Assembly (NCBI GenBank): GCA_022764165.1
Contig: JALERM010000116.1
Span: 1-64,000 of the forward strand
Direction: 5' to 3'
DNA: 64,000 nt
Origin: Eubacterium sp.
Lineage (GTDB): Bacteria; Bacillota; Clostridia; Lachnospirales; Lachnospiraceae
The position numbers and the translations under genes were made by a program. The notes beneath the pieces are model-generated. The model worked only from the letters and a program-made list of their open reading frames with translations, did not search any database and was not told where the DNA came from. Numbering within the stretch: position 1 is the first letter of the stretch; each line of letters begins with the position of its first letter. Below, one piece after another: positions 32,140-55,515 of this stretch.

Positions 32140-32144
32140 ACAAT

Positions 32145-32978: not shown

Positions 32979-32981
32979 TAG

Positions 32982-34330: not shown

Positions 34331-34345
34331 AAGGAGGCGGTACAT

Positions 34346-34609: not shown

Positions 34610-34632
34610 TAAACAGCCGGAAGTCGGACTGG

Positions 34633-36366: not shown

Positions 36367-36380
36367 TGGGAGGAATGCCA

Positions 36381-36740: not shown

Positions 36741-36815
36741 GAAGAGAGACTAGAAGGGGAGCCATGCGACAAGCTGGCTCTCCGCTCACTTTTGCAGGAT
36801 GGGAGGTGAAACTGT

Positions 36816-37655: not shown

Positions 37656-37666
37656 GAGGCAAGAAA

Positions 37667-38104: not shown

Positions 38105-38112
38105 AAAATGAC

Positions 38113-38547
38113 ATGGAAGTGAAAATGAATAAAGAAATCCGCGACTATCAGGAGGCAATGTTCTGGGGCTTAAGTTTCCGGCAGTGCCTTTTTTCAGTGC
38201 TGGCAATTCTGGCAGCCCTTGGGATCTATTTTATTACCAGGAAATACGCCGTAGAACAGGTAACCGGATGGCTGTGTGTGCTTGGGGCGGCTCCCTTTGC
38301 AGCCTGTGGCTTTTTCCGTTACCACGGCATGACTGCGGAACAGTTTGTATGGGCAGTCATCAAATCCGAACTGCTGTACCCGAAACGGCTGGTATTCAAA
38401 TCGGAGAACCTGTACTTTTCCTGCATGGAAGAAAGCCTGCAGCTAGGTGAAAAGATGATGGGAAACGGAGCGGAGCTTCTGGAGAAGAAGCGGACGAAAC
38501 AGAAGAAACCAAAGAAACTAAGAGGAAGGGGTGATGCCTTTGATTAA
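38113..38547 (+). CDS. PrgI family type IV secretion protein
   Basis: The 144 residues start with a conserved RDYQEAMFWGLSFRQ segment, then two adjacent membrane helices (LFSVLAILAALGIYFI and GWLCVLGAAPFAACGFF) and a cytoplasmic basic tail. This is the PrgI/VirB3-like component that docks the VirB4 ATPase; the downstream virB4 overlaps it by eight bases. ATG 38113 or 38125 may be used. Confidence 0.85.
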   Translation: MEVKMNKEIRDYQEAMFWGLSFRQCLFSVLAILAALGIYFITRKYAVEQVTGWLCVLGAAPFAACGFFRYHGMTAEQFVWAVIKSELLYPKRLVFKSENLYFSCMEESLQLGEKMMGNGAELLEKKRTKQKKPKKLRGRGDAFD

Positions 38548-40870
38548 AACCCTGAATCAGACACTGAAACAGGACAAAGAAAAATTCAAAGTACCGAAGT
38601 CTGTCCAGCAGGCCATCCCGATCCGTAAGATCTGGCCAGATGGGATTTTCCAGGTGGAGAGCAAGTATTCCCGTACATTCCGGTTTACGGATATCAACTA
38701 TTCCATTGCCAGCAAAGCGGACAAGACGGAAATGTTTCTGGATTACTCGGAACTTTTAAATGCACTGGATTCCGGCTGTACGGCGAAGATCACCCTGAAC
38801 AACCGCAAGATCAACAAGGAAGAATTTGAGCAGTCCCTGCTGATTCCAATGAAAGGGGATGGGCTGGATGAATACAGGAAGGAATACAACGATATGCTCC
38901 TTTCCAAAATCTCCGGTACCAACAACAGTATCTACCAGGAACGTTATCTGACTGTCAGCGTCCACAAGAAGAATATCGATGAAGCCAGGACATACTTCGC
39001 CCGTGTGGGAACGGATATCATCACCCATCTGGCCAAGCTGTCCTCCATCGGGGAAGAGCTGGATGCGGAACAGAGGCTCCAGATCTTCCGGGACTTTTTC
39101 AAGGCAGACGTTCCGCAGAGCTTTCCGTTTGATATGAAAGCCTTTGCGAAAAAGGGACACCGCTTCAAGGACTGGATCTGCCCGGACACGATGGAGTTCC
39201 ACAACGACCATTTCAAGCTGGGTGAGCAGTACGGCAGAGTCCTTTTTATGGAAGATTACGCCAGCTATGTAAAGGATGAGATGATCTCCGAACTGTGCAG
39301 CCTTGGCAGGAACCTGATGCTGTCCATTGACATTATTCCGGTGCCTACAGATGAAGCGGTGCGTGAGATCCAGAACCGACTGCTGGGTGTAGAGACCAAC
39401 GTGACGAACTGGCAGAGACGCCAAAATGCAAACAATAACTTTTCTGCTGTGGTTCCCTATGACATGGAGCTGCAGAGAAAAGAAACCAAGGAGATGCTGG
39501 ACGATCTGACCACCAGGGACCAGAGGATGATGTTCGGTATCCTGACAATGGTACATATGGCAGACAGCAAGAAACAACTGGATTCCGACACGGAAACCCT
39601 GTATTCCATTGCAAGAAAGCACCTCTGCCAGATGGCAACTCTGAAATGGCAACAGGCCGATGGGCTGAATACTGTCCTGCCGTATGGCCTGCGGAAGATC
39701 GATGCGGTGCGTACCCTTACCACAGAATCCACTGCCGTCCTGATTCCGTTTCATACGCAGGAGATCATGCAGCCGGGCGGCATCTACTATGGGCAGAATG
39801 CCGTCAGCAAAAATATGCTGGTGGCAGACCGAAGGAAGCTGTTAAATGGAAACTCGTTCCGACTGGGAGTCAGTGGTTCAGGAAAGAGCTTCTCGGCAAA
39901 GGAAGAGATCGTAGACCTTGCCCTTTCCACAGAAGATGACATTCTCATCCTTGATCCAGAGTCGGAGTTTACTTCTCTGGTGGAAGCCTTAAACGGAGAG
40001 GTCATCCAGATCTCGGCAACCTCCGATACCCATCTGAATGCACTGGATATGGACTCTGCCTATGGCAATGACCGTAATCCTCTGATTGAAAAGTCGGAAT
40101 TTATCCTGTCCCTGTTTGAGCAGCTTGTAGGAGCCGGAAACCTTTCGGCAAAGGAAAAATCCATCCTCGACCGCTGCACCGCAGATGTGTACCGGGATTA
40201 TATGAGGGGCGGATACCAAGGGCAAGTGCCGACCTTAAAAGACCTGTACCGACAGCTCATGCTCCAGCCGGAGGAAGAAGCCAGAGGGCTGGCATTGTCT
40301 TCGGAATTGTTTATCAATGGCAGTCTGAACACCTTTGCCCAGGAAACCAATGTCAATACGAAGAGCCGTATCATCGACTATGACATCCGGGAGCTGGGCG
40401 AACAGTTGATGCCCCTTGGCATGCTGGTCACACTGGATTCGATTTTCAACCGTGTGATCCAGAACTGGAAGAAGGGAAAAACGACATGGATCTTTGCGGA
40501 TGAGTTTTATCTGCTGTTCCGCTACGAATACAGTGCGGACTTTTTCTACCGTCTGTACAAGCGTATCCGTAAGTATTCCGGTTTTGTAACTGGGCTTACC
40601 CAGAACGTAGAGGAACTTCTGAAATCCGATACCGCCCGCCTGATGCTGGCAAACAGTGAGTTCCTGATCCTTTTGAATCAGGCCACTACCGACCGGGATG
40701 AGCTTGCGGCACTTCTGAATATTTCAGACAACCAGTTATCCTACATCACCAATGTGGGTGCCGGCCACGGCCTGATCCGCTGCTCTGGAAATCTGGTGCC
40801 ATTTGAAAATTCGTTCCCAAGAAACACCAAGCTGTACCGTCTGATGACGACCAAGCCGGGCGAAGCGTAA
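38540..40870 (+). CDS. virB4: VirB4-family conjugation ATPase
   Basis: TTG 38540 is chosen because GTGATGCCT immediately precedes it, as at 27760 and 28600. The 776 residues have the VirB4 N-terminal domain, Walker A LGVSGSGKSF near 443, a DILILDPESEF strand near 468, Walker B TWIFADEFYLLF near 650 and a QNVEELL motif near 690. It powers assembly of the channel. Overlap with prgI indicates coupled translation. Confidence 0.93.
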   Translation: MIKTLNQTLKQDKEKFKVPKSVQQAIPIRKIWPDGIFQVESKYSRTFRFTDINYSIASKADKTEMFLDYSELLNALDSGCTAKITLNNRKINKEEFEQSLLIPMKGDGLDEYRKEYNDMLLSKISGTNNSIYQERYLTVSVHKKNIDEARTYFARVGTDIITHLAKLSSIGEELDAEQRLQIFRDFFKADVPQSFPFDMKAFAKKGHRFKDWICPDTMEFHNDHFKLGEQYGRVLFMEDYASYVKDEMISELCSLGRNLMLSIDIIPVPTDEAVREIQNRLLGVETNVTNWQRRQNANNNFSAVVPYDMELQRKETKEMLDDLTTRDQRMMFGILTMVHMADSKKQLDSDTETLYSIARKHLCQMATLKWQQADGLNTVLPYGLRKIDAVRTLTTESTAVLIPFHTQEIMQPGGIYYGQNAVSKNMLVADRRKLLNGNSFRLGVSGSGKSFSAKEEIVDLALSTEDDILILDPESEFTSLVEALNGEVIQISATSDTHLNALDMDSAYGNDRNPLIEKSEFILSLFEQLVGAGNLSAKEKSILDRCTADVYRDYMRGGYQGQVPTLKDLYRQLMLQPEEEARGLALSSELFINGSLNTFAQETNVNTKSRIIDYDIRELGEQLMPLGMLVTLDSIFNRVIQNWKKGKTTWIFADEFYLLFRYEYSADFFYRLYKRIRKYSGFVTGLTQNVEELLKSDTARLMLANSEFLILLNQATTDRDELAALLNISDNQLSYITNVGAGHGLIRCSGNLVPFENSFPRNTKLYRLMTTKPGEA

Positions 40871-40901
40871 GAGCAGTACAGACCGGGACTGGAGGTGAGA
40901 G

Positions 40902-42893
40902 ATGAAGGATATCAAAACCAAAGAAGTTACAACAAAACCAAAGACCAAAAATCCTGCCTCCAGAATCCCCAAGGAGCTGATGCGGACGGCCATACTGGAG
41001 AGCAAGGAAAAATCCCAGACCATCGCAAATGCCAGGGATAATGATATGGGAGAACAGTCCCCATCAGAATATGCCAGTGGGAAAGTCTCATCCGCAGAGG
41101 AATGGGCTGCCAGAAAGACTGGCAGAACCGTAACCAGAGCTGGAAAGACAGCAGCACAGGCTTCCTACGAGAAGATCAAAACAAGAGCCGCGGGCAAAAA
41201 AGAAGCACAAGAAAAAGCGGAGAAAGAAGCTTCCAGAGGAACCGGGGACACACAGGCTCCTGATCAGGCCAGCCGGGAAGCACCGAAGCAGAAGAGTCGG
41301 GAACAGGCGGTATCCCGTGTGAGGATCAAAGAACGGGAAAACCAGGAAGTCCAGATCCAGAAAGCACAGCGGCAAAAGGCGATTTCAGATGCTGTCAAAA
41401 CGAAAGAACAGAAGATCCGGGCAGCCAGGGAGACACCGAGAATCCAGAATGGGCAGGAGCTACCAGAAACGAAGCGGTTCTCCATCCGAGAACAGAGCCA
41501 GAAAGCGGCAGCAACAGATACCGCAAGGCAGAATGCCATTCGTCAGAAACAGCCGGAAACCATCTGGATCAAGGAGAAGCCAAGGAAGCCGCCGGAGCCG
41601 AAAACCATGCAGAAGCGTACTATCAAGACGGCTCCCCAGTCTGCGAAGATCAGCGCCCAGCCAGAGCAGAAGCTCCGAGTGGCCAGCTCCAATGCTCTGA
41701 CAGCCCGGATGCAGAATCAGATGGAACGATGGGCTGCGAAACAGGCGGCAAAGAAAGCAGCCTTGCAGACTTCCGATGGAGTCCGCCGGATACAGAAAAC
41801 GGCAAGGGCAGGGGAGAATACCTTCAAGGCAGCCAAAGCCGCCGTGGAAGCGGCAGCGAAAACCGTACAATCCATGATGGCTGCTCTGGGAGCCGCCGGA
41901 GCGGTCATGGTTCTGCTTCTGGTTATCATAGTCGGAATCATAGGAGGTGCGGCATTCTCTGGAACTTCGGAGAGCAACGAAGCACTTAGCCAGGAAGTCC
42001 TTTCCTATACGTCAACCATCCAGAAATATGCCAACCAGTATGGAATCTCCGAATACGTCTCGGTGATACAGGCAATCATGATGCAGGAATCCGGTGGCCG
42101 GGGGACAGATCCCATGCAGAGCAGTGAGTGCCCATACAACACCCGGTACTCCAACAGCCCAAATGCAATCCAGGATGCAGACTACTCCATACAGGTGGGA
42201 ATCCAATATTATGCGGACTGCCTGAAAGAAGCCGGATGCACCAGCCCACAGGATATGGACAAGCTGAAGCTGTCCCTGCAAGGGTATAACTACGGCAACG
42301 GATACATAACGTGGGCGCTTCGAAACTACGGGGGCTACAGTGCAGAAAATGCCCTGCAGTTTTCCAACGAGCAGGCGGCTTCGCATGGCTGGAGTGCCTA
42401 TGGAGATCCAGAATACGTCCCTCATGTCCTGCGGTATTATTCCAGCGGCGGATTGTTTGCCGGCCTGTTTGGAGGCAACGGCCAGATCGTATCCGTGGCA
42501 CTTACCCAGCTTGGAAATGAAGGTGGCCAGAAGTTCTGGTCGTGGTATGGCTTTGACAGCCATGTAGCATGGTGTGCCTGCTTTGCCAGCTGGTGTGGGG
42601 ATCAGGCTGGACTGATCGAGAGCGGCAAGATGCCGAAGTTTTCCATGTGCGATGATGGAATTGCATGGTTCCAGAGCAAGGGAAAATGGAAGAGCCGGGG
42701 ATACTCGCCAGCACCCGGAACCCTGATCTTTTTTGACTGGAACGGGGACGGAACCTCAGATCATGTGGGAATCGTGGAGAAAACCGAGGGAAATGTCATT
42801 TATACAGTAGAAGGAAACACCAGCAATATGGTTGCCCAGAGAAGTTATAATATAAATGACAATACAATTATGGGTTATGGACTGATTAATTGA
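40902..42893 (+). CDS. Bifunctional lysozyme/CHAP cell-wall hydrolase
   Basis: The 663 residues contain a long charged cytoplasmic coiled region (1-320), one membrane helix (MVLLLVIIVGIIGGAAF near 340), a goose-type lysozyme/SLT-like domain (QAIMMQESGGRG near 388; VGIQYYADCL near 430) and a CHAP amidase/endopeptidase domain with Cys in WCACFASWCG near 563 and His in SDHVGIVEK near 618. This CwlT/VirB1 role opens the wall for the channel. From about 42,836 the codons turn AT-rich, so the last dozen residues may come from the inserted island. Confidence 0.9.
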   Translation: MKDIKTKEVTTKPKTKNPASRIPKELMRTAILESKEKSQTIANARDNDMGEQSPSEYASGKVSSAEEWAARKTGRTVTRAGKTAAQASYEKIKTRAAGKKEAQEKAEKEASRGTGDTQAPDQASREAPKQKSREQAVSRVRIKERENQEVQIQKAQRQKAISDAVKTKEQKIRAARETPRIQNGQELPETKRFSIREQSQKAAATDTARQNAIRQKQPETIWIKEKPRKPPEPKTMQKRTIKTAPQSAKISAQPEQKLRVASSNALTARMQNQMERWAAKQAAKKAALQTSDGVRRIQKTARAGENTFKAAKAAVEAAAKTVQSMMAALGAAGAVMVLLLVIIVGIIGGAAFSGTSESNEALSQEVLSYTSTIQKYANQYGISEYVSVIQAIMMQESGGRGTDPMQSSECPYNTRYSNSPNAIQDADYSIQVGIQYYADCLKEAGCTSPQDMDKLKLSLQGYNYGNGYITWALRNYGGYSAENALQFSNEQAASHGWSAYGDPEYVPHVLRYYSSGGLFAGLFGGNGQIVSVALTQLGNEGGQKFWSWYGFDSHVAWCACFASWCGDQAGLIESGKMPKFSMCDDGIAWFQSKGKWKSRGYSPAPGTLIFFDWNGDGTSDHVGIVEKTEGNVIYTVEGNTSNMVAQRSYNINDNTIMGYGLIN

Positions 42894-43139: not shown

Positions 43140-44129
43140 TTAGAGTTTCCGATATTCAGATGGCGATACATGAAATATTTCTTTAAAGGCAATAGAAAAT
43201 TTACTTTGGCTTTCGTATCCAACACATTTGGCAATCTGGGAGACACTGTCATCTGTATCCTTAAGTAATCTGGCAGCTTCTTTCAATCTATGTTCTTTCA
43301 TATGTGCGGCAATGGAATCACCATATACTGCCTTGAATACCTCTTTTAACGTTGAGGTATTGACAAGAAACTGTTTGGATAATTGTTCGATTGTGATTCG
43401 TTCTCCAAGGTTCTGCATCATATATTCATGTATTTTTTTGATCAGTTCCGTTTGCTCGGACGAATAGGAGGAAGGTGTTTTTGCATGGGAATCAGGGAGC
43501 GTGCTTAGGTATAAAAAAAGTTCCAGAACTTTTAATTTGCATATATCGTTCTGGATCTTAGAAGATATTTTATCAATACCGAAAAAAAGATGTCCGATCT
43601 GCTCATTTCCTGAAAAGACAGAGAAATTTTTATCATAGCAAAGATTAGTAATCCAGGACAGATCAGAAATACCTTTTTTTAATGGATATTCGGAAAGGGT
43701 ATGTTCCAGATATTCAGGAGCTACGAACAGGGAGATACCTTTGTAGTAACCTAAAGGAAAGTAAAGAGTAGAGTGTACACAGTTATCCATACGATGAACA
43801 GACAGATCCCCGCTGCCAAGGTAGATATGGCTGGAATGATCAAGTTCCCATTCTAAACGTCCATGCTGGCAAAAATCAATCTGGATCAGAGATTCATATG
43901 CCGGATGATATCCGGAAAGACTGTTTGCCCGGAAAGTAAAAAAAGTCATAAAACATCCGGGGAAGAGTGGAAGAATGGTTGCTTTTCCAGTGCCATTTAT
44001 TTTGGTTTGAAAATTCATTTTTTGTGGAAAGATATCTGTATTCAAAGATGTTTTTCCTAAAATTTTTATATTTCCATATGGAATATCCTGTAATTCCTGT
44101 GAAATTAAATTCTGATCATATACAGCCAT
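43140..44129 (-). CDS. AraC family transcriptional regulator
   Basis: The 329 residues have an N-terminal sensing domain and a C-terminal pair of AraC helix-turn-helices: ITIEQLSKQFLVNTSTLKEV near 247 and DSVSQIAKCVGYESQSKFSI near 292, ending HVSPSEYRKL. It is transcribed toward the CHAP gene, 19 bases downstream of the ArsR gene, so the two regulators probably share a message. The N-terminal ligand is not identifiable. Confidence 0.9.
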   Translation of the reverse strand: MAVYDQNLISQELQDIPYGNIKILGKTSLNTDIFPQKMNFQTKINGTGKATILPLFPGCFMTFFTFRANSLSGYHPAYESLIQIDFCQHGRLEWELDHSSHIYLGSGDLSVHRMDNCVHSTLYFPLGYYKGISLFVAPEYLEHTLSEYPLKKGISDLSWITNLCYDKNFSVFSGNEQIGHLFFGIDKISSKIQNDICKLKVLELFLYLSTLPDSHAKTPSSYSSEQTELIKKIHEYMMQNLGERITIEQLSKQFLVNTSTLKEVFKAVYGDSIAAHMKEHRLKEAARLLKDTDDSVSQIAKCVGYESQSKFSIAFKEIFHVSPSEYRKL

Positions 44130-44148
44130 AAATTGAAACCTCTTTTCT

Positions 44149-44523
44149 TTAGCGTGTATTGGATGGACAGGTTATTTCAAGTGTTTTTTCAATACTCAGA
44201 TGCAGCAGGCGGCTCTGTTCTGTATCGGATGCTTTATAGCAGACTTCCTTTCCATTTCGCCGGCTGGTTACAAGACCGTTTGATTTTAAAAGACGCAGAT
44301 GATGAGATACCGCCGGGCTTGTCATACCCATCAATGTAGAAATATTGAGGACACATTCTTCACAGTGACATAGCAGCCAGAAGATACGTAAACGGCTGGT
44401 GTCTCCGAGAAGTTTAAAGATATCGGCAGCAGCTCCAAAGTTTTCTGCATTAGAAAGCTGAGGAAGAAGTTCTTCCACATTTTTTTCCTCATGGTTATGA
44501 GGTAAATGAAATTCAGATGTCAT
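44149..44523 (-). CDS. ArsR/SmtB family metal-responsive repressor
   Basis: ATG 44523 (MTSEFHLPHNHEEKN) follows AAAAGGAGCC; the upstream extension lacks a ribosome site. The 124 residues hold a winged helix (DTSRLRIFWLLCHCEEC, MTSPAVSHHLRLLKS). Candidate metal ligands are the His-rich N-terminus and the Cys-His-Cys-Glu-Glu-Cys segment in the position of CadC/SmtB sites, pointing to Zn, Cd or Pb. It is divergent from the HMA and ATPase genes, with an operator-like dyad between them. Confidence 0.9.
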   Translation of the reverse strand: MTSEFHLPHNHEEKNVEELLPQLSNAENFGAAADIFKLLGDTSRLRIFWLLCHCEECVLNISTLMGMTSPAVSHHLRLLKSNGLVTSRRNGKEVCYKASDTEQSRLLHLSIEKTLEITCPSNTR

Positions 44524-44601
44524 AATCAGGCTCCTTTTCTTTTGAGATTGTTCCATTTGGAAGATGTTTGGTTCTGTTTGGAAGAAGAAAACCAAAGTGT
44601 G

Positions 44602-44690: not shown

Positions 44691-44909
44691 ATGAAGAAAA
44701 CATATAAGATTGAAGTAGACTGTGCAAACTGTGCAAACCTGATGGAAGATGCAGCAAAGAAAACTGCCGGAGTTGCAAATGCAACGGTTAATTTTATGAC
44801 ACAGAAAATGATCGTAGAATTTGAAGAAGGTCAGGAACCGAAAACAGTTATGGCAAGTGTTGTGAAAGCCTGCAAAAAAGTAGAACCTGACTGTGAAGTG
44901 TTTATCTGA
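44691..44909 (+). CDS. Stand-alone heavy-metal-associated (HMA) protein
   Basis: The 72 residues form one ferredoxin-like HMA domain with the metal-binding pair in DCANCANLMED at 10-20. Such proteins carry soft or transition metals to P1B ATPases. The ATPase encoded 144 bases downstream has no HMA domain, so this looks like its detached metal-binding module. The gap holds a CGCCCC/GGGGCG hairpin (44963-44991) that may set the relative expression of the two. Confidence 0.92.
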   Translation: MKKTYKIEVDCANCANLMEDAAKKTAGVANATVNFMTQKMIVEFEEGQEPKTVMASVVKACKKVEPDCEVFI

Positions 44910-45052
44910 TAGACAAAAGTTTCCCTTGTTCCTGAAAATTAATAAAGACTATAAAACCAAATCGCCCCGGAATAGGATATATTTTGGGGCGTATATTTCA
45001 AATAATATATGAAAAAATAATCATATGTTCAATAAAAAGGTGGGACAACATT

Positions 45053-46942
45053 ATGACAAAAAAACAGAAAACTATGCTGATCAGAATTTTAATAGCTACA
45101 GCAATGTTAATCGGACTTTCATTGGCCCCGATTAGTGGCTTGCCGAGGATGGCACTTTATATGGCCACATATCTGATCATTGGATATGACATTTTAAGAA
45201 AAGCGATAAAAGGAATCATTAATGGACAGATCTTTGATGAAAATTTTCTGATGGCAGTGGCAACGGTAGGTGCGATCGCACTGGCTATTTATGAAAAAAG
45301 CGGTGATTATAATGAAGCGATTGCTGTTATGTTATTTTATCAGATCGGTGAATTGTTTCAGAGCTATGCCGTTGGAAAAAGCCGTCGCAACATCAGTGCG
45401 CTGATGGATATCCGTCCGGATTATGCGAATATTGAAAAAGACGGAAAACTGGAAAAAGTAGATCCGGATGAAGTGGAAATTGGCAGTATTATTGTTGTCC
45501 AGCCGGGCGAAAAAGTTCCGCTGGATGGAATCATAACAGAGGGAAACTCTTCACTGAATACCAGTGCCCTGACGGGTGAAAGCCTCCCAAGAGAAGCAAA
45601 TATCGGAGATGAAGTGATCAGTGGATGTATCAATATGACGGGTGTCCTTAAGATTCGAACAACAAAAGAGTTTGGAGAATCTACCGTATCAAAGATTCTG
45701 GAGCTTGTAGAAAATTCCAGTTCCAGAAAATCAAAATCAGAAGATTTTATTTCAAAATTTGCAAAGGTATATACCCCTGCAGTTTGTATCGCAGCACTGG
45801 CACTGGCAATTTTACCGCCGGTTGTTCGAAGTCTGTTCATGGGACTTCCGGCACAATGGGGTTCCTGGATTTACAGAGCATTAACCTTCCTTGTAATTAG
45901 CTGTCCATGTGCGCTTGTAATCAGCATTCCGTTAAGTTTCTTTGCCGGAATTGGTGGTGCAAGCCATGAAGGAATCCTGGTAAAAGGTTCTAATTATCTG
46001 GAAACTCTGTCAAAAACAAAGGTTGTAGTATTTGATAAGACAGGTACTTTGACACAGGGTGTATTTGAAGTAAACGGCGTTCATCATAACACAATGGAAG
46101 AAGCAAAGCTTCTGGAGTATGCAGCACTGGCAGAAAGCTCTTCTTCCCATCCGATCAGTAAGAGTCTGCAGCGCGCATATGGAAAAGAAATTGACAGGAA
46201 CCGTGTCAGTGATATACAGGAAATCAGCGGTCATGGTATTCTGGCAAAGGTAGATGGAACATCTGTTGCAGCCGGAAACAGCAAATTGATGAAAAAACTG
46301 GGTATTTCTTATTCAGACTGCCATAGTGTAGGGACCATAATCCACATTGCAGTAAATGGAAGTTATGCTGGTCACATTGTAATTTCGGATGTGGAAAAAC
46401 CACATGCAAAAGATGCGATTAAGGCTCTGAAAAAAGCAGGTGTTGAAAAGACAATCATGCTTACCGGAGATGCAAAACGAGTGGCAGATCAGGTGGCTGC
46501 AAATCTTGGGGTTGATGAAGTACACAGTGAACTTCTGCCAGGAGACAAAGTTGACGAAGTTGAGAAAATTCTGGAATCCAGAAAAGGAACAAAGGGAAAG
46601 GTTGCATTTGTTGGTGATGGCATCAACGATGCTCCGGTACTTTCCAGAGCCGACATAGGAGTTGCAATGGGAGCAATGGGAAGTGATGCTGCCATTGAGG
46701 CTGCAGATGTTGTTTTAATGGATGATGATCCGATTAAGATTGCAAAAGCAATCAGAATTTCAAGAAAATGTCTTGGAATCGTATATCAGAACATTGTTTT
46801 TGCTTTAGTAGTAAAATTTGCCTGCCTGATTCTTGGCGCATTAGGTATTGCGAATATGTGGTTTGCGATTTTTGCAGATGTGGGAGTAATGGTTCTTGCA
46901 ATTTTAAATGCAATCAGAACCTTACATGTTAAGAACTTGTAG
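45053..46942 (+). CDS. P1B-type metal-exporting ATPase (CadA/ZntA-like)
   Basis: ATG 45053 follows AAAAGGTGGG. The 629 residues include the membrane metal motif SCPCAL near 284, the phosphorylation motif DKTGTL near 326, the P1B histidine-proline SSHPI near 367, and the hinge GDGIND near 522. The CPC motif and C-terminal helix pair point to Zn/Cd/Pb(/Co) export. It begins directly with a membrane helix; no N-terminal CxxC domain is present. Confidence 0.94.
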   Translation: MTKKQKTMLIRILIATAMLIGLSLAPISGLPRMALYMATYLIIGYDILRKAIKGIINGQIFDENFLMAVATVGAIALAIYEKSGDYNEAIAVMLFYQIGELFQSYAVGKSRRNISALMDIRPDYANIEKDGKLEKVDPDEVEIGSIIVVQPGEKVPLDGIITEGNSSLNTSALTGESLPREANIGDEVISGCINMTGVLKIRTTKEFGESTVSKILELVENSSSRKSKSEDFISKFAKVYTPAVCIAALALAILPPVVRSLFMGLPAQWGSWIYRALTFLVISCPCALVISIPLSFFAGIGGASHEGILVKGSNYLETLSKTKVVVFDKTGTLTQGVFEVNGVHHNTMEEAKLLEYAALAESSSSHPISKSLQRAYGKEIDRNRVSDIQEISGHGILAKVDGTSVAAGNSKLMKKLGISYSDCHSVGTIIHIAVNGSYAGHIVISDVEKPHAKDAIKALKKAGVEKTIMLTGDAKRVADQVAANLGVDEVHSELLPGDKVDEVEKILESRKGTKGKVAFVGDGINDAPVLSRADIGVAMGAMGSDAAIEAADVVLMDDDPIKIAKAIRISRKCLGIVYQNIVFALVVKFACLILGALGIANMWFAIFADVGVMVLAILNAIRTLHVKNL

Positions 46943-46948
46943 AATATA

Positions 46949-47257
46949 TTGGATAACTGGGGAATTTCATATTTGAATGAAAATGAACTGTATTCTGTAG
47001 CAGAACTGTTTAAAATTTTTGGAAATACTTCACGAATCAGGATTTTACTTGCCCTCCACGAAAAAGAAACATGTGTAAATTGTCTTGCCAAAGAACTGGA
47101 TATGTCAGAATCATCCGTATCGCACCAGTTAAATATTCTAAAAGCACACCGCTTAATAAAGAGGAGACGGGAAGGAAAACTGATATTTTACAGTCTTGCA
47201 GATAAACATGTTCGCCTGATTATTGATACAGGTCTGGAACATATATGTGAATTATAG
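46949..47257 (+). CDS. Second ArsR/SmtB family repressor
   Basis: TTG 46949 starts 6 bases after the ATPase stop. The 102 residues form a winged helix (NTSRIRILLALHEKETCVNC, SESSVSHQLNILKAH) with a CVNC pair in the alpha-3 metal site, as in CadC/CzrA-type sensors. It probably senses the exported metal and may act on the same operon or on the downstream foldase/SPFH genes. Confidence 0.88.
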   Translation: MDNWGISYLNENELYSVAELFKIFGNTSRIRILLALHEKETCVNCLAKELDMSESSVSHQLNILKAHRLIKRRREGKLIFYSLADKHVRLIIDTGLEHICEL

Positions 47258-47282
47258 AATATATGGTGATCCGACAAAGGGA

Positions 47283-47307
47283 GTGGCAGCGCAGGCTGCC
47301 ACTTTTT
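47283..47307 (+). terminator. Terminator between metal genes and foldase gene
   Basis: GTGGCAG (47283-47289) pairs with CTGCCAC (47296-47302), followed by TTTTTC. It makes the downstream foldase/SPFH cluster a separate unit, although no strong promoter was seen in 47308-47387. Confidence 0.75.
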
Positions 47308-47387
47308 CTGTAAATCCCCATAATTTTCCCATAACTTTTCTTTATACTGTGCCTGCAAAATATTTATGCATTTCAGGAGAATGTAAA

Positions 47388-49538
47388 ATGGCAGAAAATG
47401 ACAAAATACCGCAGGTACAGGATGATGAAAATGAACTGGAACAAAAGGGAAAGGATGGTGATCTGAATAACGAGATAGAATCAGAAACAGTGCTGTCGGA
47501 CTTTTTACATGCTATGGGATTTAAAAATACGAAAAAGGAGAAAAAAACTAAAGACAAGCAGGAAGAAGTGCCTAGGGATGGTGAAATGACGGAATCCGTC
47601 GAGGAGGAAGAGTCAGAACCAGAACATGAGATAATGGTTGTACCAGAACAACGTACCAGAAGGAGATGGCCGCTGGGGGTATTTGGAGCGATGGCTTTGG
47701 GCGGGGCAGCATTGGGCATATACCACAGCCTGCCAATGCTACAGGAGCCAAAGCCACCGGCCCCGGATGTTGTAGCAACTTATAATGATCAGAAGATAAC
47801 AATAGAAGAACTAAAGAATTTTATTGCTGCAGAAGGTGCAAAAGAAAGAGAGCATATGCTATGTCCAACACATGGTTATGACCATTCAAAGTGTGATGCA
47901 ACGGAAGAGTGCGAAATACATCCTGTAGATTCATTAGAAGGATATCAGGAAATGGTATCCAAAATGGCTTCGGAACAAATGATTTTAAACTGGGCCAAAG
48001 AAAAGGGAATCACTGGCAGGGAAGAAGTTCAGCATAATATGGAAGATCTGTTGAATGATGCAACAGTTGAACAGTATATGTCGCAGCTTCATGAAGAAAA
48101 TGTATCTCCTGAGTCAATTTCCAAGACAGAAGTTCAGCAGTACTATTCAGAAAATCAGGATAAATTCAAAGGAAAAAGCCTGGATGAGTCAGAAGAAGAA
48201 ATCAGAAAGACACTTGCTTCTGAAAAAGATGGAAGTTTTTTTGAAACATACTTTGAGGATTTGAAAAAAACATCAGGATTACAGGTGAATTATGACGTAT
48301 TAGAAGTTAATACACCAACAAAAGAAGAAATCTCTGATTACTATGAGCAGAATAAAGAAAAATATCAAACGTCTGCTTCAGCGGATTACAGCGAAATAAA
48401 AATTGCGGACGGAAAGATGGATACTGCTACAGAAGCAGTAAGAAAAATACGTTCCGGAGAAAGTCTCGAAAATATAGCAGGTTCTTTTGGCAAAGATAAG
48501 AAGGTATTCAAAAATTCGATAGACCTGTCTTCGGATACAGAACTGGGAAAAACAATTGCCACTATGAAAGAAGGTGAAATCAGCGAACCGATAGAAAATG
48601 AAGATGGAAGTATCAGTATCATAAAAGTAAATCAGAAAAAAGAAGGAGGGGTAAAAAAATTATCCGAAGTAACAAAAGAAATTGAAAATATTTTGTTGCA
48701 GGAAAATATAGATAAAGAATATACAACAAGAAAAAATGACACTTTATTTGTGGTTCACAGCAGACGTTATACACTGGGTGACTTTTATAAAGAATTTCAG
48801 GAATTATCAGAAGAATATCGTTCCAAATTTTCTACTTTTGAGGAGAAAAAGAAACTGGTAGAACAGATGATTGCCAAAGAATTGTTATTGGAAAAAAGCA
48901 CTGATGGTGCGGATGATGGAGAAAACAGCCACAGTTTTGAAGAACTGCAGGTTCAGTATCTTTATCAGGTGATGCACCAGGAAACAGTAGATACAAATCT
49001 AGATGAACCTACAGAGGAAGAAATCAAACAGTATTACGAAGAGAATAAAGAATCTCTGGTGACACCGGCCTCTGTAGAGCTGAGTCTGATCTGGATCAGT
49101 CAGGGAGAAAATGGCGAAAAGAAAGAGCAGGCAAAGGCTTCTGCCGAAGAAGCATATGGGTTATTAAAAGAAGGGAAAGATTTTGCTGAAGTAGCAAAAC
49201 AATATTCTGAAGATACTTCAGCTGAGAATGGTGGACAGATAACGGGGCAAATCTACAAAAATCATTTGGCTGAACCACTTGCTGAAGCAGTGTTTTCTTT
49301 AAATGAAAATGAATTCAGTAATGTGATCGAATACCAGAATGCTTTTTATATTTTGTTGGTAAGAAGCAAATCTGCAGAAGAGTTAAAGCCATTAGAGGAA
49401 CTGTCAGATGCAATAAAAAGTCATTTAAATGAACAGGCACATGATAAGCTCTCGGAAGAGTTATCACAACAGATTCTAAATGATGCGGATCTAAAGATTT
49501 ATGACAGAACCCTGAAAAAGATGCTAACAGAGACATAG
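47388..49538 (+). CDS. Membrane-anchored parvulin-type foldase (PpiC/PrsA/SurA-like) with Cys/His-rich segment
   Basis: ATG 47388 (MAENDKIPQV) follows AGGAGAATG. The 716 residues have an acidic cytoplasmic start (1-90), a membrane helix (VFGAMALGGAALGIY near 105), a SurA-like region, and at least one parvulin domain near 560-660 (AEVAKQYSEDTSAENGGQI, LNENEFSNVIEYQNAFYI); an earlier copy near 325-420 is degenerate. Residues about 157-177 hold three Cys and three His (CPTHGYDHSKCD...CEIH), a likely metal site on the outer face. Position in a metal island suggests folding of metal-exposed envelope proteins. Confidence 0.82.
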   Translation: MAENDKIPQVQDDENELEQKGKDGDLNNEIESETVLSDFLHAMGFKNTKKEKKTKDKQEEVPRDGEMTESVEEEESEPEHEIMVVPEQRTRRRWPLGVFGAMALGGAALGIYHSLPMLQEPKPPAPDVVATYNDQKITIEELKNFIAAEGAKEREHMLCPTHGYDHSKCDATEECEIHPVDSLEGYQEMVSKMASEQMILNWAKEKGITGREEVQHNMEDLLNDATVEQYMSQLHEENVSPESISKTEVQQYYSENQDKFKGKSLDESEEEIRKTLASEKDGSFFETYFEDLKKTSGLQVNYDVLEVNTPTKEEISDYYEQNKEKYQTSASADYSEIKIADGKMDTATEAVRKIRSGESLENIAGSFGKDKKVFKNSIDLSSDTELGKTIATMKEGEISEPIENEDGSISIIKVNQKKEGGVKKLSEVTKEIENILLQENIDKEYTTRKNDTLFVVHSRRYTLGDFYKEFQELSEEYRSKFSTFEEKKKLVEQMIAKELLLEKSTDGADDGENSHSFEELQVQYLYQVMHQETVDTNLDEPTEEEIKQYYEENKESLVTPASVELSLIWISQGENGEKKEQAKASAEEAYGLLKEGKDFAEVAKQYSEDTSAENGGQITGQIYKNHLAEPLAEAVFSLNENEFSNVIEYQNAFYILLVRSKSAEELKPLEELSDAIKSHLNEQAHDKLSEELSQQILNDADLKIYDRTLKKMLTET

Positions 49539-49547
49539 GAGTAATTA

Positions 49548-51086
49548 ATGATGGGAAGAAAAGAAAAAACAATTTTAGTGACAATCATTGCAAATATCAT
49601 TTTGATTATCCTGAGATTCTTTCTTGCAGATATTTCGGGGAGTATTGGTCTTGCGGCAAATGCATACCATTCTTTCACCGATTTATTTGTAACAAGTGTT
49701 GTATTTGCAGGACTTATGATTGCAAGATTCTGTGGAGAAAAAGCAAGAAATATATCAAGAAAAATGGAACATATCCTGGCAATTTTTGTATCAATATTCA
49801 TTTTTTATATGGGAATTGAGATTTTATCTGATGCACTCAGTGGAGAACAGACAGAATTAAAATATGTTCCGTTTGTTGCAGCCGGAGCTTTTGTAGGTGT
49901 TGTGATTAATTATTTTATGGCACGGTACAAGATTTATGTTGGCGAGCAGACCGGATCGGAAAGTCTTAAAGCAGATGGATACCATTCCAAAATGGATATG
50001 TATTGTGGGATTGCCGTGTTAGTGGGTGTAATTGGTTCCTTGTTTGGAATGCCGGATCTGGACAAACTGGCAGCTATTGTAGCAATGGTTCTTCTGATGA
50101 TTTCCGGGTATGAAATTTTAACCGAAAATATTCGGGCATTGATGCACCCGGATGCGGTGGAAGAACATGGACATTATAATCATGGATTTCATGAAAATAA
50201 AAAGATGGCAGCAGGTATGTGTGCTGTAATGCTCATCTCATATTTGTTATCTGGAATATATACCGTAAAACTGGATGAGGAAGGTGTAGTCAGAAGATTT
50301 GGGAAAATTACCAAGGACGTTTCACCAGGTATTCATTACAGACTACCCAGTCCAATTGAAGAAGTTTCAATTGTAAATACAGGAGAGGTTCAGAGAATTG
50401 AAACAGGCATTCAGGAATTGCTTACAGGAGATACCAATCTGGTAAATATAAATTTATCAGTGCATTATCGGATTAATGATGCAACGGCATATTTACTGAA
50501 TGTGAATAACATAGACACTCTGATACAGTCAGCTGCATCAACAAGCATTCGTCAGATTGTAGGAACCAGTAAAATAGATGATATTTTAACAGATGGTAAA
50601 GAACAGATGGAAGCTGCTGCCAGGGATTCACTCAGTCAGACATTGAACAAGAGTGACTCAGGGATCGAGATTGTGAATGTTCAGCTTATCCAAGCTGATC
50701 CACCTGAAAGTGTATTATCCAGTTTTCAGGATCTTGCGACTGCAAGGCAGGATAAGAGCATTTACATAAATGAAGCACTGTCTTATAAAAATACGATAGT
50801 ACCACAGGCAAATGCTGATGCATATAAGATTGTGTCAGAGGCTGAAAGTTATAAAGAAGATAAAATTCAGACAGCCAAAGGAGATGCTGCTTTATTTGCC
50901 CAAAAAGAAAATGCGTACTCTAAATCGAAAAAAGTAACAAAGTTCCGTTTATATCTGGAAGCGATGGAAAAAGTACTTCCGGATGCACAGAAACTTCTGC
51001 TCGGTGCGGATGTAAATGTGAATAATGCAGAACTTTGGATTGGAAATAATACAAATTCAGGAAACCAGGAGGATAATGCAAATTGA
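49548..51086 (+). CDS. Cation diffusion facilitator fused to an SPFH/HflK-like domain
   Basis: Residues 1-200 form a CDF transporter membrane domain with two HxxxD sites, AYHSFTDLF near 41 and DGYHSKMDMY near 147. Where CDF proteins have a cytoplasmic dimer domain, a His-rich linker (EEHGHYNHGFHENKK, about 205-220) leads to a further membrane helix and then an SPFH domain: GVVRRFGKITKDVSPGIHYR near 248 and a coiled-coil NEAL...PQANADAYKIVSEA near 412. The whole is 512 residues, 10 bases after the foldase. I know of no described CDF-SPFH fusion. Confidence 0.85.
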   Translation: MMGRKEKTILVTIIANIILIILRFFLADISGSIGLAANAYHSFTDLFVTSVVFAGLMIARFCGEKARNISRKMEHILAIFVSIFIFYMGIEILSDALSGEQTELKYVPFVAAGAFVGVVINYFMARYKIYVGEQTGSESLKADGYHSKMDMYCGIAVLVGVIGSLFGMPDLDKLAAIVAMVLLMISGYEILTENIRALMHPDAVEEHGHYNHGFHENKKMAAGMCAVMLISYLLSGIYTVKLDEEGVVRRFGKITKDVSPGIHYRLPSPIEEVSIVNTGEVQRIETGIQELLTGDTNLVNINLSVHYRINDATAYLLNVNNIDTLIQSAASTSIRQIVGTSKIDDILTDGKEQMEAAARDSLSQTLNKSDSGIEIVNVQLIQADPPESVLSSFQDLATARQDKSIYINEALSYKNTIVPQANADAYKIVSEAESYKEDKIQTAKGDAALFAQKENAYSKSKKVTKFRLYLEAMEKVLPDAQKLLLGADVNVNNAELWIGNNTNSGNQEDNAN

Positions 51087-51991
51087 GAAAAATACCTAAA
51101 CAAGTAGTAATCGGAACAGGGCTTATAGCAATTCTTTTTGTGGCAACTTTAATGGTATATAAAGTGGATGTAACTGAATATGCAGTTGTAACGCAATTCG
51201 GAAATCCTGTAAATGTAAATGAAAATCCTGGACTGAAAGTAAAACTTCCAGATCCGGTTCAGTCTGTGCAGAAGCTGGATAAGAGAGTTCAGGTATATCA
51301 GACTAATTCCATAGAACTTCTGACATTAGATAAGAAAAGTGTGTCATTAGATTATTATGGAGCATGGAAAATAACAGATCCTGTTTTGTATCTGAAAACG
51401 GTGAAAGATCAGATCGGAGCAGAAGCCAGACTTACAGATGTTTTCTCTTCCAGTCTGGGTGTCCAGCTTGGTAAGTACAATCTGGAGCAGCTGGTAAATA
51501 CCAATGCAGAAGAACTGCAGCTTGATACGGTGATAACAGATGCTGTTACCTATGCCAAAGAAAAAGCAGCAGAATATGGCATTGAAGTTGTGGATGCACA
51601 GATTCGTGTATTAAATTTTCCAGAAGCCAACAAGCAGAGTGTTTATGACAGAATGAGTGCTGAACGTGAGCAGATGGCTCAGAAATACAGAGCAGAAGGA
51701 AGTGAAGAGGCAGCTAAAATACGTGCTGATGCAGAAAAAGAACAAAAGCTGATTCTTGCGGAGGCATATCAGCAGGAACAGCAGATTAAAGGTGAAGGTG
51801 ATGCGGAGGCCATTCGGATTTATGGAGAAGCATACCAAAAAGATCCTGAGTTTTATGAATTTATCCGTACACTGGAAACTTATGAGAAAACAATAGATGG
51901 TAACACAACACTGATTTTGCCGTCAACAGCAGAGATACTGAAATATTTAAGTGGAAGCACAGATGGGGCGGAAGGAGAGAATGCTGAATGA
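51083..51991 (+). CDS. hflC: HflC-like SPFH protein
   Basis: TTG 51083 overlaps the fusion gene's TGA (TTGA) behind AGGAGG. The 302 residues have an N-terminal membrane helix and an SPFH domain (TEYAVVTQFGNPV near 28; YGAWKITDPVLYL near 91) followed by an Ala/Glu coiled coil (RAEGSEEAAKIRADAEKE). HflC normally partners HflK around FtsH; no ftsH gene is in the island. Confidence 0.9.
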   Translation: MRKIPKQVVIGTGLIAILFVATLMVYKVDVTEYAVVTQFGNPVNVNENPGLKVKLPDPVQSVQKLDKRVQVYQTNSIELLTLDKKSVSLDYYGAWKITDPVLYLKTVKDQIGAEARLTDVFSSSLGVQLGKYNLEQLVNTNAEELQLDTVITDAVTYAKEKAAEYGIEVVDAQIRVLNFPEANKQSVYDRMSAEREQMAQKYRAEGSEEAAKIRADAEKEQKLILAEAYQQEQQIKGEGDAEAIRIYGEAYQKDPEFYEFIRTLETYEKTIDGNTTLILPSTAEILKYLSGSTDGAEGENAE

Positions 51992-53091
51992 AAATACCAT
52001 TAAAAAGAATAAAATCCACCTCAAAAAGTGATGAAACACAAAATCCTGAGAAAAAGAGATTTCGATTCAGATTAAAGAAAATTAAAATGCCGCATGAAAA
52101 TGAAGTGGTAAAAGATCTTAAGGGTGCATTCGGACATATTAATCCCAAAAAGATAATTGGTATTATGGGGATTTCTATTGTCGCAATCTATTTTCTGACA
52201 GGAATTTATATAGTAAATCCAGGTGAACAGGCTGTTGTAAGAAGGTTTGGCAGTATCAGCAGCCAGTCTGTAGGAGAAGGTCTGCATTACAGATTTCCAT
52301 GGCCAATAGATGAAGTACAGAAAGTCAATGTCTCAGAAGTTCGAAGAGCAGATGTTGGAATGTCACTGCCGGAACATATTCACCAGCCAGATGAAGAACC
52401 ACAGGCGATTCAGCTTTTAACAGGAGATGAAAATATTATAACGACACAGGCAATTGTTCATTATAAAGTCAGTGATGCAGCAAAATTTCTTTATAATGTA
52501 AATGGAAATAATGAACAGCTGGTAAGATACAGTGTCGAGGCAGCACTTGTCAGGCTGATGGCAAATACAGCGGTTGATGATATTTTAAGTACAGAAAAGA
52601 CTGCTGCACAGAATGAGATACTGAAATTTGCACAGGAAGAATTGAACAGGTATGATACGGGAATTCAGATCACAGCATTTAATATTCAGGAAATTGTACC
52701 ACCGGATACAGTATCAGCAGCATTTTTGGACGTAACAACTGCAAAAGAAGAAAAAGAAACAGCTATCAATGAAGCAAATGGATATTATAATAGTCTGATT
52801 CCTCAGGCCAGAGCGGACGCAAGTGCATTGATATCTAATGCGGAAGCATATAAAGAAGAACAGATTGCAAAAGCAACTGGTGATACTGAGAAGTTTTTAA
52901 GTATGCTGACAGAATATAAAAATAATTCAAAAATATATTCGGAAGATACAACGAAATACAGACTTTTACTGGAAACAATGGATAAAATACTTCCACTTGT
53001 GAAAATGTATATTGTCGATTCAGCGGATGGAAATGTAGATCTGAAATTATATGATTCTGCATTATCCGGAAATATTTCTGTGACAGAATAA
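51988..53091 (+). CDS. hflK: HflK-like SPFH protein
   Basis: ATG 51988 overlaps the hflC stop (ATGA). The 367 residues have a basic cytoplasmic start, a membrane helix (GIMGISIVAIYFLTGIYI near 52) and an SPFH domain with NPGEQAVVRRFGSI and GEGLHYRFPWPIDEV near 73-110, the HflK signature. It is the third SPFH domain in a row. Three translationally coupled genes should yield a mixed membrane assembly. Confidence 0.9.
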   Translation: MKIPLKRIKSTSKSDETQNPEKKRFRFRLKKIKMPHENEVVKDLKGAFGHINPKKIIGIMGISIVAIYFLTGIYIVNPGEQAVVRRFGSISSQSVGEGLHYRFPWPIDEVQKVNVSEVRRADVGMSLPEHIHQPDEEPQAIQLLTGDENIITTQAIVHYKVSDAAKFLYNVNGNNEQLVRYSVEAALVRLMANTAVDDILSTEKTAAQNEILKFAQEELNRYDTGIQITAFNIQEIVPPDTVSAAFLDVTTAKEEKETAINEANGYYNSLIPQARADASALISNAEAYKEEQIAKATGDTEKFLSMLTEYKNNSKIYSEDTTKYRLLLETMDKILPLVKMYIVDSADGNVDLKLYDSALSGNISVTE

Positions 53092-53169
53092 AATAGAGAA
53101 ACAGTGCATTTGGCAAAAAACGAATTATAAATGCACTGTTTTTCGAGTGTTAATGAATGGGTGTGAAAA

Positions 53170-53403
53170 ATGGAAAAAAGGTTTTTCTTATTATATTTAC
53201 CAGCCGGAACATCTGCACAAATGATCTGTGTGGAAATCCGAAAAATATATGGTGTGGAATTTGTGGATTTTGAAAAAGAAACGAATATCCTTACGATAGT
53301 AGCCTTAAAGAAAAATATGGAAAGAATCATATATGCTTCCGGTATCATTCTTAAAATTCTGAATGACAGGATTACCATGCAAGAATACAGAACGTTAAAG
53401 TGA
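53170..53403 (+). CDS. Small protein, possibly a Cys-less HMA-like fold
   Basis: The 77 residues suggest a β-α-β-β-α order (FFLLYLPAG, MICVEIRKIYGVEFV, TNILTIVALKKNMERII) like an HMA domain, but with no CxxC. It lies between the SPFH genes and a two-component system. It could be a regulatory relic of a metallochaperone or an unrelated small protein; I lean to the former only weakly. Confidence 0.45.
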   Translation: MEKRFFLLYLPAGTSAQMICVEIRKIYGVEFVDFEKETNILTIVALKKNMERIIYASGIILKILNDRITMQEYRTLK

Positions 53404-53430
53404 AATAAAAAATATACGGAAGGTGAACTT

Positions 53431-54117
53431 ATGAAACAGTCAAAAAAAATATTAATTGTAGATGACGAGAAAAAAATCACAGAGGTACTTCAGGCTTATC
53501 TGGAAAAAGCCGGATATCTGACTGCTGTTGCCTATGATGGAAGAAATGCCATAAAGCTGGCAGAAACAGAGTTACCGGATCTGATCCTGCTTGATTTAAT
53601 GCTGCCAGATATTATGGGAAAAGAAGTGTGCCAGGTTATCCATCAGAAAAAAGATATTCCGATTATTATGCTTACTGCAAAAGTGGATGAAAGTGACATG
53701 ATCGCAGGACTGCAATGCGGTGCAGATGACTATATTGTAAAGCCTTTCAGTCCCAGAAATGTTATTGCAAGGGTGGAGGCAGTATTAAGACGGGTGGAAA
53801 GAAGCCAGCCGGAAATATTGAAAATTGGAACTGATTATTTAGATGTTAATTTTCAGGCACACAGTATAAAAAAGAATAATGAAGAACTTCATCTTACACC
53901 TACGGAATACAATATTTTTGAATTGCTGGTAAAATCACCGGGACGTGCATTCACGAGAGAGCAGATTATTGATTTTGCTTTGAAAGATGAATTTGATGGA
54001 TATGACAGAAGTGTTGATACTTATATAAAATATCTCAGACAGAAAATTGAACCAGATCCAAAATCACCACAATATATTGTTACGATATATGGTGTTGGAT
54101 ATAAATTTGTACCATAA
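53431..54117 (+). CDS. OmpR-family response regulator
   Basis: The 228 residues have a complete receiver (acidic VDDE near 10, phospho-Asp in LLDLMLPD near 53, Thr in MLTAK near 81, Lys in VKPF near 104) and a winged-helix output domain ending IYGVGYKFVP. AAGGTG precedes the ATG. It is paired with the kinase 9 bases downstream and likely controls the envelope genes of the island. Confidence 0.94.
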   Translation: MKQSKKILIVDDEKKITEVLQAYLEKAGYLTAVAYDGRNAIKLAETELPDLILLDLMLPDIMGKEVCQVIHQKKDIPIIMLTAKVDESDMIAGLQCGADDYIVKPFSPRNVIARVEAVLRRVERSQPEILKIGTDYLDVNFQAHSIKKNNEELHLTPTEYNIFELLVKSPGRAFTREQIIDFALKDEFDGYDRSVDTYIKYLRQKIEPDPKSPQYIVTIYGVGYKFVP

Positions 54118-54126
54118 GGAGCAAAG

Positions 54127-55515
54127 ATGAAAACAATAAAAGGCAGGCTTATATTTTCGTATTCTTTTATTTCCATTGTTATTCTTTTATCTCTGGCGCT
54201 ATTTTATACAGTTTCCATGGAAAATGTGTTCAGCGGATATGCAAAAGAACAGCTTGATGAAAAAATGCGAACTGTCGTTGAACAAATGAAAGGAGTTTAT
54301 CAGAAAGACAAACAAAAATACGAAACGACAGGGGTTGAAATTGTTGGAAATGCAGCTTTACAAAATGGCCTTTTGGTACGGCTTCAGACGCTGGATGGTG
54401 AATTAGACTGGGATATCCGGACACATAAGGAAGAGGAATGTCAGCTTACACTTCAACATGCAGAAAGTAATATGCACAGCCGTTATATTAAATTTGAAGG
54501 TTCCTATCAGGAAAAAGAATATTTGCTTGAATCAGATGGAGTTCAGACCGGAAAACTGACAATCGGATATTATGGACCGTATTCTTATACAGATGGAGAA
54601 ATCCGACTTTTGGGAACATTAAATCGATTTCTGATTTTACTGTCCGGTATATTCATTTTTGTGGCAGTTATACTTGGTGTTATTATGTCAAAAAAACTGA
54701 CAAAACCAATCTCTGATGTTACCAGATCTGCGGCTGAGATTTCAAAAGGAAAATTCGGGGTACAGATTCAGGAAAAGAGCTCCATAGATGAAACGCAGAG
54801 TTTAATAACTGCAATTAACGAAATGTCTGCCGCTTTGGAAAAAGAAGAAATACAAAAACGTCAGATTTCATCAGATGTGGCTCATGAGCTTCGGACACCA
54901 TTAACCAACCTGCAGCTGCATCTGGAAGCGATGCTGGATGGAATATGGGAACCGACAACTGAACGATTGGAGAGCTGTTATGAGGAAATTCTGCGACTGA
55001 TCCATATTGTCCGTCAGCTGCAGGAATTATATGTACTGGAAAATCAAAGAGAACCGCTGCGTTTGGAATCATTTGATTTTAGCAGCTTGTGTGAAAAATT
55101 ATGCTGGAGCTTTGAACCGAAACTCCAGGAAAAAAATCTGAAACTGACACTATGTACCAGATCGGGAGATATGTTGTGTGGAGACCGTCAGAGAATTCAG
55201 CAGTGTATGACAAACCTGGTAGCAAATGCAATCAAATATGCAGAAACCGGAAGCAGTATACGCATTATTTATAAACAGATGACGGATTCAGTCCTGATCC
55301 AGGTTCAGAATAAAGGAAATATCATACCGAAAGATGCTTTAGAGCATCTGTTTGAACGGTTTTACCGAGTTGATAAATCCAGAAACACAAAGACTGGAGG
55401 AATGGGCATTGGTCTTTCTATCACAAAAGCTATTGTGGAAAGGCATAATGGACGAATATGGGCATCCAGTGATGAAACAAACGGAACTGTTTTTTCTATA
55501 GAATTACCGAAATAG
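54127..55515 (+). CDS. Sensor histidine kinase
   Basis: The 462 residues have two membrane helices (near 10-30 and 160-185) flanking a 130-residue extracellular sensor, a HAMP linker (KKLTKPISDV), the H-box VAHELRTPLTN near 253, the N-box NLVANAIKYAE near 362 and the G-box GGMGIGLSI near 423. Its signal is unknown; the neighbours suggest metal or cell-wall stress. Confidence 0.94.
   Translation: MKTIKGRLIFSYSFISIVILLSLALFYTVSMENVFSGYAKEQLDEKMRTVVEQMKGVYQKDKQKYETTGVEIVGNAALQNGLLVRLQTLDGELDWDIRTHKEEECQLTLQHAESNMHSRYIKFEGSYQEKEYLLESDGVQTGKLTIGYYGPYSYTDGEIRLLGTLNRFLILLSGIFIFVAVILGVIMSKKLTKPISDVTRSAAEISKGKFGVQIQEKSSIDETQSLITAINEMSAALEKEEIQKRQISSDVAHELRTPLTNLQLHLEAMLDGIWEPTTERLESCYEEILRLIHIVRQLQELYVLENQREPLRLESFDFSSLCEKLCWSFEPKLQEKNLKLTLCTRSGDMLCGDRQRIQQCMTNLVANAIKYAETGSSIRIIYKQMTDSVLIQVQNKGNIIPKDALEHLFERFYRVDKSRNTKTGGMGIGLSITKAIVERHNGRIWASSDETNGTVFSIELPK

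Follow-up and report, generated by a model that had tools for sequence, protein, structure and literature searches.

The window analysed here is the whole stretch of 64,000 nucleotides from a contig of Eubacterium sp. (family Lachnospiraceae), and the four-gene unit described below, its hairpins and its linked metal and signalling genes lie on the forward strand unless stated otherwise. Positions 49548–51086 encode a protein of 512 amino acids in which one chain joins a CDF transporter domain to an HflK-type SPFH subunit, as identified by the open reading frame call, Pfam, NCBIfam and homologues. The reading frame is unbroken, begins with ATG and is preceded by an AGGAG ribosome site at 49537–49541. 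Residues 10–199 (49575–50144) form the six-helix transporter domain and match Pfam Cation_efflux PF01545 (E 1.7e-26, 93.7 bits, cut-off 26.6); the protein is also assigned to the CDF family by NCBIfam TIGR01297 (94.7 bits, cut-off 82.35). Two HxxxD sites, H41/D45 and H146/D150, make up the A-site quartet in helices 2 and 5. They are followed by a His-rich linker (residues 193–219, 50124–50204; five His, predicted to be cytoplasmic), a seventh helix that corresponds to the HflK membrane helix (residues 220–238, 50205–50261) and an SPFH domain predicted to lie outside (residues 239–410, 50262–50777), which matches Pfam Band_7 (E 1.5e-26, 94 bits, cut-off 23.6).

The fusion is recognized by the HflK equivalog model TIGR01933 (243.1 bits, cut-off 159.4), and, in keeping with an HflK, a single predicted membrane helix directly precedes the outside SPFH domain and hflC adjoins the gene. 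The enterobacterial-type full-length HflK model NF008181 scores 191.6 bits against a cut-off of 660, so that the fusion does not correspond over its full length to an HflK of the E. coli type. A cytoplasmic C-terminal dimer domain is usual in CDF proteins although not universal; the Pfam scan returned no match to this domain (ZT_dimer) in the fusion, which is for this reason classed as a CDF transport domain in a new architecture and not as a standard CDF. A sequence-only reading of this DNA had described two HxxxD metal sites in a membrane domain, with a His-rich linker and a membrane helix leading into an HflK-like SPFH domain, and both descriptions are borne out by the domain matches.

Seven hydrophobic segments are present in the fusion. 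The mean number of Lys and Arg residues per loop, taken over 118 homologues, is 3.0, 0.4, 3.9, 1.2, 3.2, 1.0 and 4.1. This pattern predicts that the N-terminus, loops 2–3 and 4–5 and the His linker are inside and hence that the SPFH part is on the outer face of the membrane. An HflK normally has its SPFH domain on this side, whereas a CDF dimer domain would lie on the other. The same reading had taken the SPFH domain to replace the CDF cytoplasmic domain. The helix count and the charge pattern set it on the opposite side, so it is not an in-place substitute for that domain, which is absent.

A search for near relatives returned 295 proteins at E ≤1e-3, and both Pfam domains are present in 120/120 of the matches listed (53–100% identity). 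With a profile that included distant members, 1551 proteins were found at E ≤1e-60, again with both domains in 120/120 of those listed. The sequence-only reading had named homologues that are always two separate genes as an outcome against the fusion, and this outcome did not occur. Source names among the listed near relatives include Lachnospiraceae, Oscillospiraceae, Sedimentibacter, Desulfosporosinus and Synergistaceae, and those among the listed distant relatives include Rhizobium, Oceanicaulis, Planctomycetes, Chloroflexi, Actinobacteria and Entotheonellia. As several of these entries are metagenome bins, the phylum given for any one of them may be incorrect. Across several bacterial phyla, related proteins retain the fusion, with the same partners encoded alongside. 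That a frameshift or an artefact of sequencing or assembly has joined two genes is so improbable that this explanation was rejected, as both domains occur in 240/240 of the relatives listed, in other assemblies and in a complete plasmid record, and a 100% identical fusion protein is found in two named assemblies (loci L045 and L046).

The His-Asp-His-Asp quartet is kept in 118/118 near relatives (two of the 120 listed, not over 480 amino acids, were omitted), in 120/120 of the distant relatives listed and in 28 of the 29 fusions from the loci described below. A linker with at least two His is present in 117/118 near and 104/120 distant relatives among the matches listed. The single locus fusion to have lost the quartet, that of L092 (L092:3761-6217), reads M-N-H-H and carries about 290 extra N-terminal residues that resemble membrane helices; the CDF half of at least one member thus cannot work in the usual way. 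Short relatives that consist of the CDF part only were also recognized by reading of the ends in 12/38 matches (including P0131, P0139 and P0142). These have 212–224 amino acids, are without the dimer domain and end in or just after a His-rich stretch, and some may be truncated at contig ends.

The fusion belongs to a unit of four genes, inherited together, that encode a peptidyl-prolyl isomerase (PPIase), the CDF-HflK fusion, HflC and a second, unfused HflK (HflK2). In the window hflC (51083–51991) overlaps the fusion gene by 4 nt and hflK2 (51988–53091) overlaps hflC by 4 nt; both were assigned with Pfam and NCBIfam. The PPIase gene directly upstream, missed by the sequence-only reading, is as firm a member of the unit as hflC and hflK2. 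Thirty distinct loci were compared: 26 of the 36 obtained from a scan with the peptides INYFMARY and HSKMDMY, which favours members keeping them, together with L092, L094, L102 and L104. Near-copies (L046, L049, L051, L056, L057, L068, L073, L075 and L079) and the short and broken L076 were left out. The PPIase is present in 29/30 loci, L102 being the one without it, and HflC and HflK2 are present in 28/28 and 27/27 of the loci whose contigs extend to them, the HflK2 matches in L078 and L094 being the fusion itself. The order PPIase, fusion, HflC, HflK2 is found in 24 loci, and on a plasmid described below the PPIase comes last; the remaining five loci are cut or, in L102, have no PPIase.

Several local variations were seen around the unit. 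A DUF1385 gene lies between the PPIase and fusion genes in L054, L055, L056, L057 (9084–9989) and L075, and an extra stretch occupies the same position in L070. A P-II-type protein gene follows HflK2 in L102 (L102:11715-12056), and the HflC of L092 reads in two pieces. Just upstream of the L092 PPIase, L092:15-1352 encodes what appears by eye to be a thioredoxin/CcdA-like membrane protein, with no Pfam match. Near the unit of Flavonifractor, L057:4229-4621 encodes a small protein that begins with a signal-like segment and contains repeated Cys/His-Asp-His units, likewise with no Pfam match. In the window a small open reading frame follows hflK2 (53170–53406); it has no NCBIfam match and, among the loci searched, is kept only in the identical L045 and L046.

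Terminator-like hairpins are found before the PPIase gene (47275–47310, z −4.5) and after hflK2 (53096–53144, z −6.1). The terminator scan gave 13 hairpins against 5.6 expected, so that single hairpins there mean little; these two are far better than shuffles, none of which was as good as either. Within these boundaries the four genes appear to be transcribed together, separately from the neighbouring ATPase and arsR genes. The promoter scan was weak (32 found, 26.7 expected), and an ArsR operator pattern gave no signal (32 matches, where shuffles averaged 39.7). The window's genome encodes a separate HflK/HflC pair and a separate CDF besides the unit, which is thus an extra and not the housekeeping set.

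The PPIase (47388–49538; 716 amino acids from the ATG at 47388) is membrane anchored and contains PpiC domains, with a match to the rotamase domain PF13145 of 113.8 bits (cut-off 27). Its N-terminal part, ahead of the PpiC domains, carries a Cys/His motif (residues 156–178, 47853–47921) of the form H-x2-C-x2-H-G-x-[DN]-H-x2-C ... C-[ED]-x-H, which is present in 22 of 27 complete, distinct PPIases. The motif as written is absent from the other five: those of L062, L074, the plasmid, L094, where the open reading frame begins at the contig edge, and L092, where a longer Cys/His-rich stretch replaces it. The motif is a putative metal-binding site. The PPIase is predicted to be outside the membrane, a location supported by the lipobox in the PPIases of L070, L071 and L092.

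In a tree of HflK sequences three groups are resolved, comprising 28 fused HflKs (support 99/92), 27 HflK2 proteins (98/92) and 29 HflKs of the host family (100/100). The fused HflKs and HflK2 group together (100/100), away from the host-family HflKs. The bootstrap of this tree was not quite settled, and L104 and L092 lie on long branches. A quick tree that included HflK from E. coli, Azospirillum and Pontibacillus recovered these groups again, although the fused group was less well supported (88) and the outgroups lay on long branches. Pairwise distances of the CDF part, the HflK part, HflC, HflK2 and the PPIase correlate with r of 0.83–0.92 over 25 loci, and 0/999 permutations were as high; this demonstrates shared inheritance and is not proof of contact. 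The simplest reading of these trees and distances would be one duplication and one fusion, followed by spread as a unit.

Genes for metal handling are linked to the unit, outside its core. Upstream lie genes for a small HMA metal-binding protein (44691–44909), a ZntA-like P-type ATPase (44984–46942, likely ATG at 45053) and an ArsR/SmtB-family regulator (46949–47257). The ATPase is closest to ZntA (solved zinc ATPase 4umv, E 2.4e-99) and has a CPC motif, and by eye DxG is found near the end in 12/12 distinct ATPases of its cluster; CPC together with DxG in the last helix is a signature of P1B-2 (ZntA-type) ATPases. The nearest solved relatives of the regulator are CzrA and SmtB. It has an ArsR fold and, in helix 5, the pattern D-x-H, ten residues, H-x-x-E/H, presumably the SmtB/CzrA zinc site. 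This pattern occurs in 7/23 distinct open reading frames of a mixed cluster and is absent from several ArsR-like neighbours. Divergent from the HMA gene before the ATPase, on the reverse strand at 43140–44595, an AraC-type and a second ArsR-type regulator were noted by eye. A response regulator (53431–54117) and a sensor histidine kinase (54127–55515), often linked to the unit, follow on the downstream side.

A ZntA-like ATPase is near the unit in 15/30 loci and an ArsR-type regulator in 14/30; the ATPase was not found in the other 15, some of them with 10 kb on each side (L066, L067, L077), nor the regulator in the other 16. On a Poribacteria contig an ArsR gene with the zinc-site pattern lies directly before the PPIase and fusion genes with no ATPase match on the contig, and a likely metal sensor is thereby tied to the unit proper. 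Zn(II) is the most likely metal, with Cd(II) or another divalent ion as possibilities. A firmer call is weakened by the ArsR neighbours that lack the pattern, by the plasmid copy, which sits among copper genes, and by the limited correlation between site and metal described for CDF proteins in the available text of PMC5703985.

The fusion is thinly scattered. It was found in 3/150 genomes of the host family and, in scans of wider groups for which the query was the CDF half or a close CDF, in 1/391 genomes of the host class and 1/398 of the host phylum (in both cases the window's own genome only), in 2/185 genomes in the phylum of a Synergistaceae member, in 1/299 in that of a Desulfosporosinus member (the seed only) and in 2/84 in that of the Poribacteria member, where a third match is a different CDF. 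In two genomes of this last phylum, L093:45-1304 and L103:5562-6776 encode another kind of CDF fusion, with Cation_efflux, ZT_dimer and Nitro_FeMo-Co in one protein.

This patchy occurrence is consistent with horizontal transfer. In the window the metal genes are flanked by conjugation genes (30841–42893; relaxase at 30841, coupling protein at 34633, VirB4-like protein at 38531, lysozyme/CHAP protein at 40902) and by a helicase gene (61349–63325), which suggests that an integrative conjugative element is present in the window. A conjugative plasmid of Aquibium oceanicum carries a copy of the fusion (39% identity) followed by genes for HflC, HflK, the PPIase and a P-type ATPase that is ZntA-like by eye; it is the one record of 47 matching plasmid records in which a single place covers at least 80% of the query. 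A phage origin was rejected, as the phage collection matched the HflK half only (two records), and none of the 177 stretches of viral contigs that fitted a pattern encoded a relative. A role as a defence system was likewise rejected, with 0 PADLOC families for the four unit proteins.

Taken with the known behaviour of related proteins, the arrangement suggests that CDF-HflK, HflC and HflK2 assemble as a cage on the outside of the membrane, and that the CDF part would export zinc-like ions into it for a foldase predicted to reside there and bind them; we give this reading a probability of about 0.5. Precedents for such a cage exist in HflK/C cages and in stomatin domes with transport proteins inside, and by analogy we infer cage formation, the direction of transport and the use of the metal. 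The fused HflK would alternate with HflC as in the E. coli cage, bringing several CDF units into one membrane patch, where adjacent units could pair without the usual cytoplasmic dimer domain. Exported metal would enter a partly closed space and be bound there by the PPIase motif, and might then metallate or refold exported proteins or be kept off them. Metal stress may be the trigger, acting through the linked ArsR regulator and two-component system. The partners found with the fusion fit the metal-export microdomain proposed in the sequence-only reading; they are HflC and HflK2, the PPIase with its Cys/His motif, and the ZntA-like ATPase and ArsR regulator encoded nearby. A bolder form of the proposal, advanced tentatively, is that the unit is a mobile and so far undescribed microcompartment, in which an SPFH cage of transporter subunits pumps zinc-like ions into an outer chamber with a metal-binding foldase and combines export with metallation, folding or protection of secreted proteins in one enclosed place.

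The CDF part could instead serve mainly as an anchor or metal sensor, with metal at the quartet and His linker altering an HflK/HflC ring that controls the PPIase or FtsH, and with transport secondary or lost. HflK relatives are known modulators of FtsH, three FtsH genes score over the cut-off in the window's genome, and in L092 the architecture persists although the quartet is lost, with a further membrane region at the N-terminus. However, all three FtsH genes lie on contigs other than the window's, and the retention of the quartet in all listed relatives (118/118 and 120/120) and in 28/29 locus fusions makes this explanation unlikely. A plainer alternative, doubtful though not far-fetched, is an ordinary CDF resistance exporter for which HflK is a handy oligomer domain that makes up for the lost dimer domain, the closed chamber being irrelevant. 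The metal-resistance neighbours, the mobile location and the CDF-only relatives with a His tail would all suit such an exporter. An oligomer domain alone would not need HflC, HflK2 and the PPIase, yet in the loci studied these proteins accompany the fusion and their distances correlate, which counts against this explanation.

If the proposed export cage is correct, a transporter covalently built into an SPFH ring would make directly testable what SPFH cages enclose, and why. The source names of the fusion relatives, among the matches listed, are mostly 'HflK', which hides the transporter half, and this database name is corrected by the present assignment. As the unit is compact and mobile, it should be transferable whole into laboratory strains.

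Each part of the unit is of a known kind, but neither the covalent union of transporter and SPFH subunit nor the four-gene arrangement is described in the open-licence literature searched. No account of a CDF-SPFH protein was found in that literature (subscription papers being outside its scope). The available text of a 2009 SPFH survey (PMC2636767) contains neither 'cation' nor 'transporter', and in PMC7997004 CDF and SPFH terms occur only in unrelated places. Pseudomonas aeruginosa paFlo5-6-7 (2026 study, PMC13086221) resembles the unit in having three SPFH genes in one operon and a patchy distribution; the words 'cation', 'transporter' and 'fused' are absent from the description at hand.

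Similar to foldases of the PrsA/SurA type, the unit PPIase has PpiC-type rotamase domains, is anchored and is predicted to lie outside; unlike them, it has an N-terminal Cys/His motif and the constant company of CDF-HflK. The CDF half shares the six-helix Cation_efflux domain and HD-HD quartet of YiiP/FieF and ZnT-type zinc transporters, although its sequence match to solved FieF/YiiP chains is weak (E ~2e-4). This quartet is reported for Zn clades among others, in the portion of PMC5703985 available. In contrast to YiiP/FieF, the fusion has no detected cytoplasmic dimer domain and continues with a seventh helix and an SPFH domain. Residues 225–486 align with HflK of the E. coli HflK/HflC cage with FtsH (PDB 7vhp and others; E 2.2e-49). 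In the accessible text of PMC12048511 this cage encloses FtsH with 24 subunits in alternation, and an open, nautilus-like form was also seen. Common to both are one membrane helix followed by an SPFH domain, predicted here to be outside, and an adjoining HflC gene. The present unit differs in having a CDF domain before the helix, two HflK paralogues and a PPIase, with no FtsH on the window's contig. The interiors of such cages have been likened to chaperonin chambers (PMC12624060, in the part available). The stomatin dome around aquaporin-1 and the urea transporter UT-B, as outlined in the text at hand of PMC12407830, is a further SPFH assembly that encloses transport proteins; there the protein is a eukaryotic stomatin and not an HflK, and the transporter is a separate cargo, whereas in the unit described here it is fused to the SPFH subunit.
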